From contig NZ_ARWB01000001.1 of NCBI RefSeq assembly GCF_000384475.1, positions 3,413,039 through 3,477,038 on the forward strand: a stretch of DNA of 64,000 bases. The letters run 5' to 3'. Position numbers and translations under genes: made by a program. Numbering within the stretch: position 1 is the first letter of the stretch; every line of letters begins with the position of its first letter. The notes under the pieces are model-generated. The model was not told where the DNA came from, made no database searches, and worked only from the letters and a program-made list of their open reading frames with translations. Source of the DNA: Methylopila sp. M107 (lineage in GTDB: Bacteria > Pseudomonadota > Alphaproteobacteria > Rhizobiales > Methylopilaceae). This document shows, one piece after another, positions 22,345 through 29,519 of this stretch.

Positions 22345-22542
22345 ATGCGAACCACCGTGACGCTCGACGATGATCTCGTCGCCAAGGCTCAGGAGTTCAC
22401 GGGAATTCAGGAACGGTCGGCGCTGATGCGTGCGGCGTTAGAAGCATTGGTGCAACGAGAGGCAGCCCAGCGACTGGCGCGTCTTGGCGGGACCGCGCCG
22501 GGCCTCGTTGCGCCGCCACGCAGACGCTTTCCGCCCGAATGA
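22345..22542 (+). CDS. vapB: VapB-type antitoxin
   Basis: A 65-residue protein with an N-terminal ribbon-helix-helix DNA-binding domain (RTTVTLDDDLVAKAQEFTG, then a helix with SALMRAALEALVQRE) and a C-terminal basic/proline tail that would wrap the toxin. An AGGAGG sequence lies about 8 bases before the ATG. Its stop overlaps the toxin start (ATGA). Such antitoxins bind their own promoter, so the short region 22290-22340 probably holds the operator. Confidence 0.85.
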   Translation: MRTTVTLDDDLVAKAQEFTGIQERSALMRAALEALVQREAAQRLARLGGTAPGLVAPPRRRFPPE

Positions 22543-22907
22543 TCCTCGTCGACACCTCGCTTTGGATCGATCATCTCGGCAAGGCCAACGAGACGCTCAT
22601 GGAGCTGCTCTTGGCCAGCCAGATACTCAGTCATCCCTATATTGTGGGAGAAGTGGCTCTAGGCGACCTTCCCAATAGAGCCCGGACCATCGAGAGCCTG
22701 CTGGTGCTGCCGCGCGCAGTGGTCGCGGCGACCAACGAGGTCCCACCATTCATCGAGCGTCATAATCTGTTCGGCACGGGCATCGGATATGTCGACGCCC
22801 ACCTCCTGATGTCAGCGCTACTGACGCCGGACGCCAAACTCTGGACTCGCGACAAGCGCCTCAACGCCGCCGCGGTCCGCCTCGGCGTCGCGGCGGATTT
22901 CGTCTGA
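22539..22907 (+). CDS. vapC: VapC-type PIN-domain ribonuclease toxin
   Basis: A 122-residue PIN-domain protein. The acidic active-site residues are visible: D5 in MILVDTSLWIDHL, E38 in VGEVALGDL, D86 in GIGYVDAHLL and D105 in LWTRDKRL. It is full length with all key residues, so it should be an active RNase neutralised by the upstream antitoxin. The stop lies 7 bases from the stop of homospermidine synthase, which converges on it. GC content is close to its neighbours. Confidence 0.9.
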   Translation: MILVDTSLWIDHLGKANETLMELLLASQILSHPYIVGEVALGDLPNRARTIESLLVLPRAVVAATNEVPPFIERHNLFGTGIGYVDAHLLMSALLTPDAKLWTRDKRLNAAAVRLGVAADFV

Positions 22908-22914
22908 GCGAAGC

Positions 22915-24348
22915 TCACCCCACGAAAAAGTTCCGGAACTGCCAGGGGTCGCTTTCGTCGATCTCTTCCGGGAACAGGCCCGGGCGGTTCTCGAGCGGCG
23001 TCCAGTCGGTGTAGTAGCCTTCGACCGGGCCGAGATAGGGCTTCTGGATCTCGAGGCAGCGCTTGAAGTCCATCTCGTCGGTCTCGACGATGCCCTCGTT
23101 CGGATTCTCGAGCGCCCAGACCATGCCGGCGAGGATGGCGGAGGTCACCTGAAGGCCGGTCGCGTTCTGGTAAGGCGCGAGCGTGCGGGTTTCTTCGAGC
23201 GAGAGCTGCGAGCCGAACCAGTAGGCGCCCTTGGCGTGGCCGTAGAGCAGCACGCCGAGCTCGTCGATCCCGTCGACAAGCTCGTCCTCGTCGAGCACGT
23301 GCAGCGTCTCCTGCACCTTGCCTTCCGCGCCGAACAGCTCGTGCCACGACAGCACGGCGTCGTCGGCCGGGTGATAGGCGTAGTGGCAGGTCGGGCGATA
23401 GACCGCCTTGCCGTCTTCCCAGACGGTGAAGAAGTCGGCGATCGAGATCGACTCGTTGTGCGTGACGAGGAAGCCGTATTGCGGCCCCGGCGTCGGGCAC
23501 CAGGTGCGCACCTTCGTGGCCGCGCCGGGCTGCATCAGATAGATCGCGGCGGCCTTCGGGTCGTCATGGGTCTTGCCGTTCGCCGGCATCCACTTTTCGT
23601 GGCTCCCCCAGCCGAGCTCGGCCGGCTGCAGACCTTCCGAGATGAAGCCTTCGACCGACCAGGTGTTGAGGAACACGCCGCGCGGCTTCGGGTCGGTGGT
23701 GCGCTGGGTGTCGCGCTCGGCGATGTGGACGCCCTTGACGCCGATGTGGCGGAGCAGCGCCGCCCATTCCTCGCGGGTCGTGGGCTCCGGCACGTTGAGC
23801 TTCAGGTCGGAGGCGATGTTGAGCGCGGCCTGCTTGACGAAGAACGACACCATTCCGGGGTTCGCGCCGCAGGTGGAGACGGCGGTCGGCAGGCCCTTCG
23901 GCGAACGGCGGCGAAGGTCGAGCGTCATCTCGCGCAGCGCATAGTTGGAGCGCTCGGACGGGCCCTTGGTCTTGTCGAAATAAAAGCCGAGCCACGGCTC
24001 GTTGACGGTGTCGATGTAGAGCGCGCCGAGTTCCTGGCAGAGCTCGATCAGGTCGGCCGAGCCGGTGTCGACCGAGAGGTTGACGCAAAAGCCCTGGCCG
24101 CCGCCATTGGTCAGCAGCGGGGTCAGCAGCTCGCGATAGTTTTCCTTGGTGACGTGCTTCTGGATGAAGGGCACGCCGTATTCGTCGAGGATGTGCTTGT
24201 TGAGGTCGGACGGGTCGATCGCGACGATGCGGTCCTTGTCGTATTCGAAGTGCCGCACGATCAGCGGCAGCGTCCCGCGCCCGATCGAGCCGAAGCCGAT
24301 GATGACGATCGGGCCGTCGATTTTTCCGTAGACGGGCCAGTCGGTCAT
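22915..24348 (-). CDS. hss: Homospermidine synthase
   Basis: A 477-residue NAD-dependent enzyme that joins two putrescine units (or putrescine and spermidine) to give homospermidine. The N-terminal Rossmann motif is IVIIGFGSIGRG, followed by AIDPSDLNKH, and the catalytic region contains YIDTVNEPW and STCGANPGMVS, as in the bacterial Saccharop_dh-type synthases. Full length. Homospermidine is a major polyamine in Hyphomicrobiales, and the ornithine decarboxylase at 30-31 kb supplies putrescine. The ATG at 24348 is preceded by a GAGGAGC sequence. Confidence 0.95.
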   Translation of the reverse strand: MTDWPVYGKIDGPIVIIGFGSIGRGTLPLIVRHFEYDKDRIVAIDPSDLNKHILDEYGVPFIQKHVTKENYRELLTPLLTNGGGQGFCVNLSVDTGSADLIELCQELGALYIDTVNEPWLGFYFDKTKGPSERSNYALREMTLDLRRRSPKGLPTAVSTCGANPGMVSFFVKQAALNIASDLKLNVPEPTTREEWAALLRHIGVKGVHIAERDTQRTTDPKPRGVFLNTWSVEGFISEGLQPAELGWGSHEKWMPANGKTHDDPKAAAIYLMQPGAATKVRTWCPTPGPQYGFLVTHNESISIADFFTVWEDGKAVYRPTCHYAYHPADDAVLSWHELFGAEGKVQETLHVLDEDELVDGIDELGVLLYGHAKGAYWFGSQLSLEETRTLAPYQNATGLQVTSAILAGMVWALENPNEGIVETDEMDFKRCLEIQKPYLGPVEGYYTDWTPLENRPGLFPEEIDESDPWQFRNFFVG

Positions 24349-24462
24349 TCGCAGCTCCTCGCAGGTTTTCGTTGCGTCGCAGCGATAAACCCGAAAGAGC
24401 GCGAGAGATCAACGACAGGGGCATGACGGCATGGTTCTCAGACGGTTCTCGCCGTCTCCGCC

Positions 24463-24548
24463 GTCATGGTCGGGCTTGACCGGACCATCCACCTCCGTCC
24501 TCGAGCTCGGCGACGAAAGTGGGTCCTCCGGTCAAGCCGGATGATGAC
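24463..24548. repeat. Dispersed inverted repeat, family B
   Basis: Arms at 24463-24492 (GTCATGGTCGGGCTTGACCG...) and 24519-24548 (reverse complement, ending ...GGATGATGAC) pair with a 26-base loop. It follows the stop side of the DoxX gene and lies upstream of hss. The same GTCAT(G/C)...GGCTTGA core occurs at 30088-30172, 34877-34973 and 60281-60372. Confidence 0.7.
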
Positions 24549-24557
24549 GACGGCGCT

Positions 24558-25043
24558 TCAGCGAAACCGCTTCGCGATCAGGTGGTCCAGCGAGACGACG
24601 CCAGGTCCGCGCGCGATGATCAGCAGGAAGCAGGCGGCCCATGTGCCATGCGTCGGCCATGCGTCGGGATAGACGAAAATCTGGATCACCAGCGTCATGC
24701 CGAGCAGGGCGAGCGCCGCGAAGCGGCTGCCCAGGCCGATGACGAGCAACACTGGAAACAGGTGTTCCGCGATCGCCGCGCCATGGGCCGCAAGCGTCGG
24801 GTCGACCAGCGGCAGCTTGTACTCGTCCTGAAACAGGAACACGGCGCTGTCGGAGAGCTTGAAGATGTTCAGCCCGTCTGTCTTGGTCTGGCCCGACTGC
24901 CAGAACGCCGCCGCGATCGGGATGCGCGCCATCAGCGCGAGCGCGGAGTAGGGGATCTGCTCGAACAGCCCGATCACGCGCTGGATCAGCCCGGCGGCCC
25001 CGGTCCGAGGCGCGGCGGACGCGGATGCGATGGCGGCGTTCAT
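24558..25043 (-). CDS. DoxX family membrane protein of the bufferin-type operon
   Basis: A 161-residue protein with four hydrophobic helices (about residues 35-55, 85-105, 108-125 and 130-150) and the DoxX-type start [21 protein letters not shown]. DoxX proteins commonly end DUF2282-DUF692-DUF2063 operons. Its start overlaps the upstream DUF2063 gene stop (ATGA), so it is translationally coupled. It may handle electrons or quinones for metal/redox homeostasis in the membrane; this is inference. No signal peptide beyond the first helix. Confidence 0.88.
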
Positions 25044-25822
25044 GACGCGTCTCCTGTGGGATCGGCCGAGCCGAGGCCGACCGCGAGGCCGGCTTCGATG
25101 AGCCCGATGAGATTCTGGGTGAGGTCGAAGTCTTGCACGTCGTCCGCCGCGATCGCGGCCGCCGCGCCGAGCGGCGCGCCGGATTTCAGCGCGCCGAGGA
25201 ACGCGGCGCCGCCCGGCGGCAAGGCGCGTACGAGGACGTCCATGCCGGGCCGCGCGACCAGCGCGTCCTCGCCGCGCCAATCCTCGATCGGCCCGAGTTC
25301 CGTCTCGCCTGCGTTCATCGCCCAGATCGTCACGACCGGACGCGCCGAGCGCACGGTTTCGACCGAGGGGTGGAGCGTGAGCGCAGCGCGGTCGAGCGCT
25401 TCCGGATCGAGCGCTGCGAACGCCTCGGCTCCGAGCGGCTCGGCGTCGGCCGCGTGATAGGCGCGGGTGCGGGCGGCCTCCAGCCGCGCGACGTCGGCGA
25501 GATAGGGCAGCTCGTCGAGACCGGGCGCCAAGGCGACGAAGTCCGGAAAGTCGTCGCCATAGCTCATCATCACGGGCGAGCGCGGCCGGTGGCCGGCGAC
25601 ATAGGCGCGAGCGAGTTCGGCGAAGAACTCGTCGCCGACGATTCTCTGAACGGCCGGAAAGCGCTTCGCGATCGCGCCGGCGAGCGAGACCGCGACATTG
25701 TTGCGATAGACCGCGAACCGCCTTTCGGGCCGCGTATCGCCCGAAGGCGCGAGCTGTTCGGGCGCTGGCCGCGCGGGATCTTCGAGCGAGGCGGCGAAGG
25801 CGGACTGGAGCACTGCGGACAT
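25040..25822 (-). CDS. bufC: BufC/HvfC-like DUF2063 protein
   Basis: A 260-residue protein. The N-terminal DUF2063 domain contains [19 protein letters not shown], the hallmark YRNN block, followed by [13 protein letters not shown] and [14 protein letters not shown]. In bufferin and related MNIO systems this protein is the partner that recruits the precursor peptide to the DUF692 enzyme; the older label of putative DNA-binding domain is not supported by that work. It lies 12 bases after the DUF692 gene and overlaps the DoxX gene. Confidence 0.88.
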
Positions 25823-25834
25823 CGTCGTGCTCCC

Positions 25835-26683
25835 TCAGGCCGCGCGTCTGCGGGCGGCGGCGGCGAGCGCCGCATCGGCGCGGCGCGCCTCAGTGCGGAG
25901 CGTCGCCCAGTCCGGCACGTCGTTGTCCCATTCGATCAGGCTCGGGAGCGGGCCGGCGCGGGCCAGCACGTCGGCGTAGAGCGCCCAGACGGCCTCCGGC
26001 GTGACCGAGCCATGGGCGTCGATCAGCAGCGGCGCGCCCGCGTCGTCGAGGTCGGCGTCGTGGCCGGCCAGATGGATCTCGCCGACACGATCGAGCGGAA
26101 AGGCCGCAAGATAGTCGTGCGCCGAAAAGCCGTGATTGGTCGCGGAGACGAACACGTTGTTGACGTCGAGCAGCAGCCCGCAGCCGGTCGCGCGGGCGAT
26201 CTCGGCCAGGAACGCGGTCTCGGGAATTTCGCTCTCGGTGAAGGTGACGTAGGTCGCGGGGTTCTCGAGCAGCATCCGCCGGCCGAGCGCGGTTTGCGTC
26301 TCGTCGACATGCGCGATCACGCTGCGAAGCGTCTCGGCCGTGTAGGGCAGGGGGAGCAGGTCGTTCAGGAAGGCGCCGTCATGCGTCGACCAGGCGAGGT
26401 GCTCGGAAAAGCTCTCGGGTTCGTATCGGTCGCATAGGATTTTCAGGCGCTGCAGGTGGTCACGGTCGAGCGGGTCGGCGCCGCCGATCGACAGGCCGAC
26501 GCCATGGATCGACAGCGCATGCTCCTCACGCAGCCGCCGCAGCATGGCGTGGGGCGGGCCGCCCGCGCCCATGTAGTTTTCGGCGTGGACCTCGAAGAAG
26601 CCGGCAAAGTCGTCGGCGAGGATCGAGTCGAAATGCTCGGGCTTGAAGCCGACGCCGGATGTGGCGGGGAGGGCGGTGCGCAT
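25835..26683 (-). CDS. bufB: BufB/HvfB-like DUF692 multinuclear iron oxidative enzyme (MNIO)
   Basis: A 282-residue TIM-barrel enzyme of the DUF692/MNIO family. Metal-ligand segments of the family are visible: [53 protein letters not shown] and LIDAHGSV. MNIOs use two or three iron ions to modify cysteines in ribosomally made peptides; in bufferins they make thiooxazole groups that bind copper. The gene follows the precursor gene bufA after a 162-base gap filled by an inverted repeat. ATG at 26683 is the first in frame and precedes the conserved GVGFKPEHF. Confidence 0.92.
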
Positions 26684-26723
26684 GGGACGCCTCGTGTTTT
26701 TGTGACCGGTGCTCGCGCATAGC

Positions 26724-26834
26724 GCCCCTCTCCCCTTGAGGGAGAGGGTAGGGTGAGGGGTGACGGCGGCGCGTTATCAAAGGAAGGCGCCGCCCGCACC
26801 CCCACCCCCGACCCCTCCCCTCAAGGGGAGGGGA
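26724..26834. repeat. Dispersed inverted repeat, family D, between bufA and bufB
   Basis: Left arm 26724-26772 (CCCCTCTCCCCTTGAGGGAG...) and right arm 26786-26834 (...CCCCTCAAGGGGAGGGG) are reverse complements over about 45 bases with a few mismatches and a 13-base loop. Each arm also holds its own small CCTC/GAGG hairpin. Read on the minus strand it comes just after the bufA stop and would strongly structure the operon transcript. Confidence 0.78.
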
Positions 26835-26845
26835 GAAGTGACGAG

Positions 26846-27136
26846 TCACATCTTGATGGCTTCGAGGGAGCCCATGCCCTTCGGGGTCTTCATCGTGGTG
26901 CAGGTGCCCTTGGGCACGGCCTTCCATGCGTTGCCCTGATAGTCGGCCTTCGAGGTGCCCGCGCAGGTGGTGCCGGCGCCGGCGGCGCAGTCGTTCTGGC
27001 CCTTGAGCGCGACGCCGTAACACTTCTCCTTGCCGGCCATCTTGTCCTCGGCCGAGGCGGTCGATGCGAGCGAAACAGCGGACAGCGCGGCGAGCAGCGA
27101 GCCGGCGAGCGCGACGTTGACGGTGCGACGATGCAT
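26846..27136 (-). CDS. bufA: Bufferin-type precursor, DUF2282 (BufA)
   Basis: A 96-residue exported peptide: Sec signal peptide (residues 1-29, ending in STASA) followed by a mature part with four cysteines at 39, 50, 58 and 79, in the DUF2282 pattern [19 protein letters not shown] and VPKGTC. In the described bufferins these cysteines are modified by the MNIO and bind copper in the periplasm. An AGGAGA ribosome site lies at 27143-27148, 6 bases before the ATG. The gene is first in the operon and is followed by an inverted repeat, so it may be expressed more strongly than the modification enzymes. Confidence 0.9.
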
Positions 27137-27190
27137 GGTGTTTCTCCTGAAGCCTTCTGGCTGAGCCGTTCGTCGGCTCGTGACTGAGGC

Positions 27191-27216
27191 TTCGTCGCGG
27201 TCCCGGGGAATGTTAC
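27191..27216 (-). promoter_or_regulatory. Putative ECF (SigF-type) promoter of the buf operon
   Basis: Read on the minus strand the site is GTAACA, 16 bases, CGAA. It fits the GTAACC-N16-CGAA form described for Caulobacter SigF, and lies 55 bases upstream of the bufA start. The matching site on the other strand (27283-27308) has the same spacing. Confidence 0.72.
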
Positions 27217-27282
27217 GTACGATCACGCAATCACGCGTTCGTGAGAGTTCGGCGCGACGCAGTCTCCCGTCCGAGGGCGCGC

Positions 27283-27308
27283 GTAACGATCGTCCGCGCT
27301 TCCGCGTA
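27283..27308 (+). promoter_or_regulatory. Putative ECF (SigF-type) autoregulatory promoter of sigF-nrsF
   Basis: GTAACG, 16 bases, CGTA, ending 20 bases before the GTG start of the sigma factor. The -35 element and spacing equal those of the buf promoter on the other strand, which suggests that the sigma factor drives both its own gene pair and the buf operon. Confidence 0.65.
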
Positions 27309-27328
27309 AAGCCCATCAAGAGGTCCGT

Positions 27329-27880
27329 GTGAACGAGCGAGAACGGGATTGGACCCCGTGGATGAGAGCGGCGATCGCCGGCGACGCCGGCGCCTACCGG
27401 CGCCTGCTCGCGGCGCTCGCCCCGTTCATCCGGAGCGTCGCGCGAAGCCGCGCGGCGTCGTTCGGGCTCGTGGCTGCGGATGTCGAAGATGTGGTGCAGG
27501 AGACATTGCTCGCGATTCATCTGAAGCGCGGCACCTGGGATGACGGCCAGCCGGTCGGCCCCTGGGTCGCGGCGATCGCGCGCAACAAGCTGATCGACGC
27601 GCTGCGTCGGAAGGGCCGGCGGGTGCACGTGCCGGTCGACGACTTCGCCGACATTCTTCCGGCGGAGGAGAAGGACGAGGGGTTGGCCCCCGGCGAGGCC
27701 GAGAGGCTGATCTCGGTGCTGAAAGGTCGCCAGCACGCGGTGGTGAAGTCGATCTCGCTCGACGGCGCGGACATCGCCGAGACCGCCGAGCGGCTGAAGA
27801 TGAGCGAGGGCGCGGTGAGGGTCGCGCTGCACAGGGGTCTGGCTGCGCTCAGCCAGGCTTATAGGAGCTTCCGGGAATGA
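27329..27880 (+). CDS. sigF: ECF sigma factor, SigF type
   Basis: A 183-residue ECF sigma factor. Region 2 (about residues 22-90) contains [20 protein letters not shown] and [21 protein letters not shown], which binds the -10 element; region 4 (about 125-178) contains [23 protein letters not shown], a helix-turn-helix for the -35 element. These features fit the group paired with NrsF anti-sigma factors. GTG at 27329 was chosen over GTG 27327, which is out of frame. The stop overlaps the anti-sigma start (ATGA). Divergent from bufA. Confidence 0.9.
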
Positions 27881-28515
27881 GGACCGACGACCTGATCAAC
27901 GCCATCGCCGCCGACGCCGGGACATCGCCCCGGCGGTTCGCGCCGGCGCTGTGGGCGGCGCTCGCGGTCTCGGCGGTCGCGGCCTGGTTTGTCGGCTGGA
28001 GCATGATGCCGCCGCGGCCTCCGGTCGATCCGGCCTTCGCTGCCGTGCGCTTTCCGATGAAGTTCGTGCTGACCGGCGCCTTCGGCGTGGCGGCGGCCGC
28101 GCTCGCCATGCGTCTCGCGACGCCGGGCGCGGCCTTGAGGCCCGCGCGCGGCGTGCTGTTCGCGGCGCTGGCGCTGCTCGCGGCGGCGGTTCTGGCCGAA
28201 CTTTACGTCACGCCGGGCGATCTCTGGGAAACGCGGATGGTCGGACAGAACTGGCTCGTCTGCCTGATCCACGTGCCGATCCTGTCCGCCATCCCGCTGG
28301 TTGTGACGTTGCTCGCTTTCCGGCGCGGCGCGCCCGGGTCGCCGACGCGTCTCGGGGCGGCGGCCGGCCTGCTCGCCGGCGCGGTCGGCGCGACGGTCTA
28401 CGCCGCGCACTGCCCGGACGACTCCCCGTTGTTCCTTGGGGTGTGGTACACCCTCGCCGTCGGCTTGGTGACCATCGTCGGCGCGGCGATCGGTTCGCGC
28501 ATTCTCAGGTGGTGA
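27877..28515 (+). CDS. nrsF: NrsF-type anti-sigma factor (DUF1109)
   Basis: A 212-residue membrane protein with a short cytoplasmic N-terminus and six hydrophobic helices. Two cysteines, C129 in [10 protein letters not shown] and C179 in [12 protein letters not shown], are in the family-conserved places; the spacing of 50 residues equals that of the cysteines reported as essential for metal sensing in Caulobacter NrsF. It holds the sigma factor inactive until envelope metal stress. Translationally coupled to sigF (ATGA). Confidence 0.9.
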
Positions 28516-28561
28516 GGCGCCGGACGGCGACCGCCTGACCGCGGCGACGCTGGAGGTCCAC

Positions 28562-28825
28562 ATGCTCCCGCCCTGGCTTCAGCCGTCGAAACCGAAGCGA
28601 CACGGCGAGCACGCCTTCGACCGCGATCCGGAGCGATCCGAAAAGGCGATCCACCTCGAACTCCTTGCGATCGGCATCGGCGCGGCGATCGTCTGGTTCG
28701 TCGTCGTCGCGTTCGTTTCGATCCTGTTCCAGTCGGTCTGGCCGATCGTCGTCGGCGTCGTTTTGGCCGCGGCGTTGCTCTGGGGCGTCCGCGCGATCTG
28801 GCGGAAACTGCAGCGCCGCGCATGA
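28562..28825 (+). CDS. Small membrane protein downstream of nrsF
   Basis: An 87-residue protein with a charged N-terminal third (residues 1-30, HGEHAFDRDPERSEK) and two hydrophobic helices (about 33-55 and 58-76) ending in a basic tail. No family is recognised. It lies 46 bases after nrsF on the same strand with a TGGAGG sequence before the ATG, so it may be part of the sigF-nrsF transcript. Function unknown. Confidence 0.6.
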   Translation: MLPPWLQPSKPKRHGEHAFDRDPERSEKAIHLELLAIGIGAAIVWFVVVAFVSILFQSVWPIVVGVVLAAALLWGVRAIWRKLQRRA

Positions 28826-28973
28826 CGTCCTGCTGCGTCCTGCGCCCGTTAACCCTCTGATACGCATTAACTTTGAGTCAAAACTTCGCGGCGAAATTGA
28901 CGCTTCGGCAGTGCCGCCGCGGCGCCTGTTCGGCTACATCGACCTCGACCAGAGATTGTCGGGGAGGCGCAAG

Positions 28974-29519
28974 ATGGGCTGGAAAGCGATGGCGATCGCA
29001 TTCGTCGCGAGCTTCGTCACGGTCTCGACCGCGAATGCAGGCTTCCTGGACTTCCTGTTCGGTCGCCGCGCTCCGGCCGCGGCGCAGCCAGTCGCGCAGC
29101 ATCCCGACGTCACGGTGACCAAGCCCCGCGTCAAGCGCGTGGCGAAGGCGGACGGACCGCGCAAGCCGAAGCAGATGCGGCTGGTCGCGCTCACCCCGAA
29201 GGACCAGCGCGCCCGGACCATCGATCCGATCGCCAATCCCGACTGGTACCTGACCGACCCGACCCTGCGGCGCGGCGACATTCTCGTGCTCGCCGACCGG
29301 GTGCTGGTGTTCAAGGGCGGGGAGATCGGCGCGCCGAAGAGCTACGTCTCGCTGAACGAGACGAGGCTCTACAACCGCAAGGAACGGCTGCTGATCGCCG
29401 AGATGACCAAGCAGCCGAACGAGCCGTTCCTGCTCGCCGACAAAGCCGGCCCGCGCCAGCCCCGCCTCCTGAAGTCCGCGAGCCTGCTCAGGCCGCTCGA
29501 GCTGCGATCCGGCCTCTGA
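28974..29519 (+). CDS. Exported hypothetical protein
   Basis: A 181-residue protein with a clear signal peptide (MGWKAMAIAFVASFVTVSTANA/G, cleavage near 22), a basic proline-rich linker (residues about 30-70) and a compact C-terminal domain from DPIANPDWYLTDPTLRRGDIL onwards. The latter resembles small uncharacterised periplasmic proteins of Hyphomicrobiales; I cannot name a family. ATG 28974 follows GGGGAGG at 28961-28967. Its 3' end overlaps the facing GNAT gene by 32 bases, an unusual tail-to-tail overlap. Confidence 0.7.
   Translation: MGWKAMAIAFVASFVTVSTANAGFLDFLFGRRAPAAAQPVAQHPDVTVTKPRVKRVAKADGPRKPKQMRLVALTPKDQRARTIDPIANPDWYLTDPTLRRGDILVLADRVLVFKGGEIGAPKSYVSLNETRLYNRKERLLIAEMTKQPNEPFLLADKAGPRQPRLLKSASLLRPLELRSGL

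Follow-up and report, generated by a model that had tools for sequence, protein, structure and literature searches.

In a 64,000-nucleotide (nt) stretch of Methylopila sp. M107 (contig NZ_ARWB01000001.1, positions 3,413,039 to 3,477,038; the window), a bufferin-1 operon, doxX-bufC-bufB-bufA, lies back to back with sigF-nrsF, the genes for an extracytoplasmic function (ECF) sigma factor and its membrane anti-sigma factor. We suggest, with a probability of about 0.8, that the operon is under the control of this ECF16 (SigF/NrsF-type) switch and that copper buffering is one arm of a response to oxidation of the cell envelope. The gene content, the promoter motifs with their conservation, and the absence of the operon where the sigma pair is kept are all read from the sequence. 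The mechanism of release, the chemistry of the peptide, its binding of copper and the signal are inferred from published relatives.

An earlier note on this DNA had described bufA, bufB, bufC and doxX on one strand and sigF-nrsF on the other, within 24558-28515. This order is confirmed, the operon taking up 24558-27136 of the minus strand and the sigma pair 27329-28515 of the plus strand, and all six genes exceed their curated Pfam cut-offs, see Table 1. The bufB product also passes the NCBIfam model NF050167 MNIO_BufB (374.7 bits, cut-off 310; MNIO, multinuclear non-haem iron-dependent oxidative enzyme), and SigF is assigned as an RNA polymerase sigma factor by NF009165 (257.5 bits, cut-off 198). 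The Buf1 identity proposed in the note and the homology of SigF/NrsF to the Caulobacter pair are thus supported by Pfam and NCBIfam scores. The six-gene set is not a chance neighbourhood, because the partners recur in public genome records (many are metagenome-assembled genomes, and some contigs are short). Of 569 confirmed BufB loci the best 80 were used, and the fetched flanks hold BufA at 79 loci, BufC at 80, DoxX at 77, SigF at 53 and NrsF at 52, and the complete set is found at 48. One MNIO, one DUF2282 and one NrsF gene were found in the genome, which is a single 4.45-Mb contig.

Two SigF-type promoter motifs (GTAAC-N17-CGWA) stand back to back between bufA and sigF. The published motif of Caulobacter SigF is GTAACC-N16-CGAA (PMC3511200), and a Brucella paper quotes (T/C)GTAAC-N17-CGAA for ECF16 (PMC8315932). 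Divergent sigF/bufA regions, 60 in number with the present one, were scanned with the pattern GTAA[CT]-N16-18-CG[AT]A. The sigF site was found in 59, the bufA site in 52 and both in 52 of these loci, which are related and hence not independent, compared with means of 0.36 sigF sites and 0.225 bufA sites, and no locus with both, in 200 shuffled sets. Duplicate loci of the own genome are excluded here, as they are from the NrsF, BufA and BufB conservation counts below. Within the genus, the sigF promoter lies 19-21 nt upstream in 12/12 genomes, and the bufA site is present in all eight of these that bear the operon, with an N18 spacing in G001 and G009. A sigma-70 consensus scan of 24300-28900 found no site.

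Because genomes with and without the operon share the same sigma pair, the genus allows the roles of the switch and of its cargo to be told apart. NrsF is present in 13 of 13 same-genus genomes, the own genome counted. Four of them (G002, G003, G006 and G007), all with a listed completeness of 100%, retain sigF-nrsF, and no MNIO gene was found there. In G002 and G007 the gene for homospermidine synthase directly adjoins sigF; in G009-G012 the two genes are separated by doxX-bufCBA, as they are in the window, and G001 likewise has the operon there, at a larger distance. The synthase was not within the examined stretch in G003, G004, G005 and G006. All eight BufB proteins of the genus fall into a single clade (support 100/94), and on this protein tree loss of the operon would be simpler than repeated gain. 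The motif ahead of msrP is retained in all four genomes in which no MNIO gene was found. The best reading of the sequences is that an ECF16 regulon for envelope oxidation carries the bufferin operon as optional cargo. G008 (loci L026, L045 and L047; listed as 88% complete) gives three matches to NrsF and one, in two pieces, to MNIO.

The predicted regulon reaches beyond the operon. In the own genome, strict motif sites lie 33 nt ahead of the genes for MsrP, MsrB and EgtB and 35 nt ahead of that for an MsrA whose N-terminus is signal-like, and these proteins exceed their family cut-offs (MsrP 409.7, cut-off 207; EgtB 575.9, cut-off 360; MsrA 172.7, cut-off 108.1; MsrB 169.4, cut-off 113.05). 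The 128 strict sites in 12 same-genus genomes, the own genome counted, were clustered without any preselection of genes by the open reading frames starting at most 160 nt downstream; G008, in which genes are broken in several frames, was excluded. The resulting groups are sigF in 12 genomes, msrP in 11, an MsrQ-like gene in 8, egtB in 7, rpoH, msrB and bufA in 6 each, and msrA in 4. Those of msrB and msrA combine periplasmic-looking with cytoplasmic-looking forms, and the sites of rpoH and egtB are those at the loci L009 and L016 and at their same-genus homologues. In the seven groups measured (all but msrA), the spacer is 36-60% identical and the fixed letters 95-100%; the fixed letters were preselected by the search, and the low spacer identity is the informative figure. 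The rpoH product passes TIGR02392 (358.5 bits, cut-off 323.1) and the MsrQ-like protein passes Pfam Ferric_reduct (37.9, cut-off 28).

A second count started from the proteins, independently of the motif. With G008 counted, N17 sites lie upstream of 12/13 msrP, 8/13 egtB, 6/15 msrB and 4/16 msrA homologues found by protein search, and none of 1500 permuted motifs reached these counts (maxima 3 for msrP, 1 for egtB, 3 for msrB and 3 for msrA). It is from such sequence comparisons that the SigF switch probably also controls genes repairing oxidised proteins, and it would therefore not be dedicated to the peptide.

Several observations weigh against this reading. The strict motif is no commoner than its reversed pattern (16 against 19 sites in the own genome, 158 against 178 in the 13 same-genus genomes, 128 against 161 when G008 is left out), and therefore lone sites prove nothing and conservation between genomes was used instead. 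The clustering of the 128 sites was itself made without a reversed-motif control. The margin for msrA is small, its 4/16 standing against 3 for the best permuted motif. G004 is without a site at msrP and at egtB, and the strict egtB site is missing in 5/13 genomes; GTAAT-type sites about 86 nt ahead of egtB in three genomes are excluded from the counts. The rpoH sites are 88-100 nt upstream, more distant than most others. The MsrQ-like protein is under the NCBIfam MsrQ cut-off (106.5 against 130), and NrsF misses the strict NCBI equivalog NF042994 (111.5 bits, cut-off 300). It is a member of the Pfam NrsF family, but not NCBI's strict NrsF.

Six of the own-genome sites (L002, L003, L007, L010, L011 and L013) fall in no group of at least three genomes and are taken as chance. 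Motif-linked groups of three genomes were formed by a 99-amino-acid (aa) membrane protein, an Hpt-domain protein and a catalase-family protein; two more such groups are other-frame reading frames over the MsrQ-like and rpoH genes.

We suggest, from the published relatives, that the switch could work as follows. NrsF in the inner membrane would hold SigF until thiols in the periplasm are attacked, be it by a metal (copper in excess, or a different one) or by an oxidant (hypochlorite or peroxide, for example). This attack, at C179 or close to it, would free SigF. SigF would then transcribe sigF itself as well as the back-to-back bufABC-doxX. The central cysteines of BufA (C50 and C58) would be oxidised to thiooxazoles by BufB and BufC, and BufA would be exported by Sec, form a C39-C79 disulfide and bind copper in the periplasm. 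The same type of SigF promoter would turn on msrP, the msrQ-like gene, msrA, msrB and egtB, and perhaps rpoH.

The key cysteines of NrsF and BufA are kept. NrsF has exactly two cysteines, C129 and C179, with the spacing of 50 residues given in the earlier note, and they are conserved in 77/77 and 76/77 sequences, the present one counted (the weak matches L046 and L122 were excluded from this alignment). The adjacent histidines are less conserved, H132 in 5/77 and H178 in 47/77, which argues against a fixed four-ligand metal site in NrsF. The four cysteines that the note had ascribed to BufA are present at positions 39, 50, 58 and 79 and are invariant in an alignment of 12 BufA copies; their spacing of 11-8-21 is common to 82 of 111 other copies, and 11-7-21 is found in 19. 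By eye, the N-terminus of BufA looks like a Sec signal, with MHRR, a hydrophobic stretch and ASA before ED. With cleavage at the site judged by eye, residues 30-96 would have a monoisotopic mass of 6857.26 Da unmodified, and of 6847.18 Da with two thiooxazoles (4 H lost for each) and one disulfide. A search of solved structures found no relative of BufA at E up to 1. Invariant in 80 BufB sequences (79 others and the present one; matches shorter than about 240 residues were excluded both here and from the BufB tree) are E31, H33, H60, H95, E140, N141, D173, N176, H204, D222 and H224, among others. When aligned with the solved relative 3BWW, most of the invariant residues have an identical counterpart; H33 is an exception. 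It is supported by these comparisons that BufA and BufB belong to the Buf1 bufferin type.

The divergent layout invites another explanation, a dedicated circuit in which copper is what SigF and NrsF sense and the bufferin operon is what they are there to drive. The promoters share one gap, and the bufA site is present in every operon-bearing genome. According to the Caulobacter work, the SigF regulon is induced by copper and a sigF::Tn5 mutant is copper-sensitive (PMC8224329), and the strongest RpoE7 targets in Sinorhizobium meliloti are reported to be the four divergent genes (PMC6180224). However, the four genomes without a detected MNIO gene, of 12 other same-genus genomes, keep the sigma pair, and the motif is kept ahead of msrP in 11 of 12 genomes, these four included. 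A dedicated copper circuit is for these reasons quite unlikely. It is slightly less unlikely that the peptide has a different metal or an oxidant (gold, silver, chromate or hypochlorite) as its target, and not copper. Relatives are induced by chromium and cadmium (PMC3511200), the gig cluster of Cupriavidus is induced by gold, silver and copper as told in PMC8224329, and the regulon predicted here is largely one of methionine-sulfoxide repair. On the other hand, binding of both Cu(I) and Cu(II) via thiooxazoles is reported for the Buf1 peptide of Caulobacter (PMC12452194), and all four BufA cysteines are kept here. An assignment to the oxazolin/HvfA or the Buf2 branch has hardly any probability. 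The NCBIfam matches that could point to it are weak and under their cut-offs (BufA2 25.4 against 60, HvfC 52.9 against 142, HvfX 43 against 80, the last for the doxX product), while DUF2282 and MNIO_BufB are above theirs, and clusters of Buf1, unlike those of Buf2, are reported to contain sigma factor and NrsF genes (PMC12452194).

Copper buffering as one arm of an envelope-oxidation response thus remains our preferred reading. We find it slightly better than an even bet that the ECF16 sigma factor of the genus is a general redox regulator of the envelope, acting on msrP, the msrQ-like gene, msrA, msrB, egtB (ergothioneine) and rpoH (heat-shock sigma factor), with the bufferin operon plugged in as a replaceable module. 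If true, the cell would buffer copper, repair methionine sulfoxide and make ergothioneine in a single coordinated response. The sequence comparison within the genus also suggests that what NrsF senses is a kind of damage that copper and oxidants both cause, and not copper itself. The reported inducers of related NrsF-type switches include copper, chromium and cadmium, hydrogen peroxide and hypochlorous acid (PMC3511200, PMC8224329, PMC3420878, PMC8315932), while S. meliloti is reported not to respond to hydrogen peroxide, cadmium or chromate (PMC6180224). The sensing of a shared damage would reconcile these differences between Caulobacter, Bradyrhizobium, Brucella and S. meliloti.

Among the known relatives, Caulobacter crescentus/vibrioides shares with the window SigF-NrsF-controlled DUF2282, DUF692 and DoxX genes (bufferin 1), and NrsF cysteines 50 residues apart, C131 and C181 (PMC3511200, PMC8224329). 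The SigF targets there are CC3254-CC3257, a paralogous cluster and MsrPQ, and the regulon is released when the two cysteines are substituted (PMC3511200, PMC8224329). MsrP is thus part of the Caulobacter regulon (PMC8224329) as it is of the one predicted here. However, a second SigF-driven cluster has no counterpart among the single MNIO and DUF2282 genes found in the present genome, msrP and the msrQ-like gene are here at separate loci, and egtB, msrA, msrB and rpoH are further predicted targets. In S. meliloti, the four genes SMb20530-SMb20527, with DUF692 and DUF2063, are divergent from the RpoE7-EcfR7 sigma/anti-sigma pair, as here; they are called orthologous to CC3254-CC3257 and have the same promoter motif, and overexpression of RpoE7 raises both gene sets (PMC6180224). 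Unlike the regulon predicted here, the available text of that paper gives no methionine-sulfoxide reductase target, nor a signal. EcfF-OsrA of Bradyrhizobium japonicum is an ECF16 sigma factor with an NrsF-type anti-sigma factor, its cysteines at exactly 129 and 179 as here; OsrA needs C129 to interact with the sigma factor and C179 to respond to hydrogen peroxide, by which the system is induced (PMC3420878). The EcfF motif is GTAAC-N14/15-(c,t)CG(t,a) and methionine-sulfoxide reductases are among its targets; bufferin genes are not named in the available text (PMC3420878). The Brucella ECF16 regulon holds MsrPQ homologues (PMC8315932). Finally, the Buf1 clusters of Antoine et al. 2025 have a core of DUF2282, MNIO, DUF2063 and DoxX, with sigma factor and NrsF genes as listed companions (PMC12452194); nothing essential differs here, and the present copy adds a repeat element between bufA and bufB.

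The claim of the earlier note that the system is extended to another lineage is therefore weak, because the arrangement, the promoters and the sigma control are published for Caulobacter and S. meliloti, the latter already a rhizobial example (PMC6180224), and the arrangement is also found in many public alphaproteobacterial records. Nor is it supported that the sigma pair is the operon's own, as the note had it: throughout the genus the motif is also seen ahead of methionine-sulfoxide-repair genes, and genomes in which no MNIO gene was found still have sigF-nrsF. The evidence does not support a private copper circuit that is new to the lineage. What the window adds is a further species with a system of a known kind, within a wider predicted regulon. 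As a bufferin operon it is ordinary, and the comparison between genomes is the useful part. The predicted links to egtB and rpoH are directly testable, and neither gene is named as an ECF16 target in the portions of the open-licence literature searched.

Table 1. Features of the bufferin locus (positions of the window; scores in bits)
Feature	Position	Strand	Description
doxX	24558..25043	minus	161 aa membrane protein; PF07681 60.6 (cut-off 23.6)
bufC	25040..25822	minus	260 aa, DUF2063 partner of the MNIO enzyme; PF09836 91.1 (cut-off 27.2)
bufB	25835..26683	minus	282 aa MNIO bufferin maturase; PF05114 (MbnB_TglH_ChrH) 342.9 (cut-off 25)
Palindromic interspersed repeat	26722..26838	none	limits from BLAST matches; inside the 162-nt bufA-bufB gap
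bufA	26846..27136	minus	96 aa Buf1 (DUF2282) precursor; PF10048 89.4 (cut-off 22.4)
SigF-type promoter of bufA	27191..27216	minus	GTAAC-N17-CGAA, 54 nt ahead of the ATG
SigF-type promoter of sigF	27283..27308	plus	GTAAC-N17-CGTA, 20 nt ahead of the GTG
sigF	27329..27880	plus	183 aa ECF-type sigma factor, GTG start; Sigma70_r2 46.5 (cut-off 24), Sigma70_r4_2 36.9 (cut-off 25.7)
nrsF	27877..28515	plus	212 aa membrane anti-sigma factor; PF06532 (NrsF, DUF1109) 160.7 (cut-off 26.8)

The start of doxX is probably the ATG at 25043, which gives a 4-nt overlap with the bufC stop, rather than the TTG of the listed reading frame. sigF and nrsF likewise overlap by 4 nt.

The repeat between bufA and bufB is strongly folded by prediction (-100.8 kcal/mol and z -6.75 for RNA of 26684-26849), and it may stabilise the bufA messenger or lower bufB, so that the precursor is in excess of the enzyme. 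In the genome, 61 BLAST rows fall into 40 places with copies, 20 of which are at least 70 nt long. Compared by BLAST with eight other loci, the repeat matched only that of G009 (L040), with 83% identity over 80 nt at the same point in the operon; no match was found in L020, L021, L024, L030, G011 (L039), Ciceribacter L064 or Labrys L080. The long bufA-bufB gaps of the last three look palindromic by eye. An Rfam search of 24000-29000 gave no match at the gathering score.

In the sample of the best 80 of 569 BufB loci, some on short contigs, sigF is absent from the fetched flank at 27/80, and 17 of these 27 belong to a single group of 20 rows in the BufB tree, which is weakly supported (85/79). 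The sigF-less loci (among L089-L127 and others) suggest that there are bufferin operons under other control.

Downstream of nrsF, at 28562-28825, the window encodes an 87-aa membrane-like protein that reaches the cut-off of no family (PF06570 21.9, cut-off 29.1; no NCBIfam match). On the other side of the locus, between bioA and the homospermidine synthase-like gene, 22345-22907 holds a VapB-like antitoxin (PF09957, 52.3 bits) and, after it, a PIN-domain protein that scores 20.5, just under the cut-off of 23.6.

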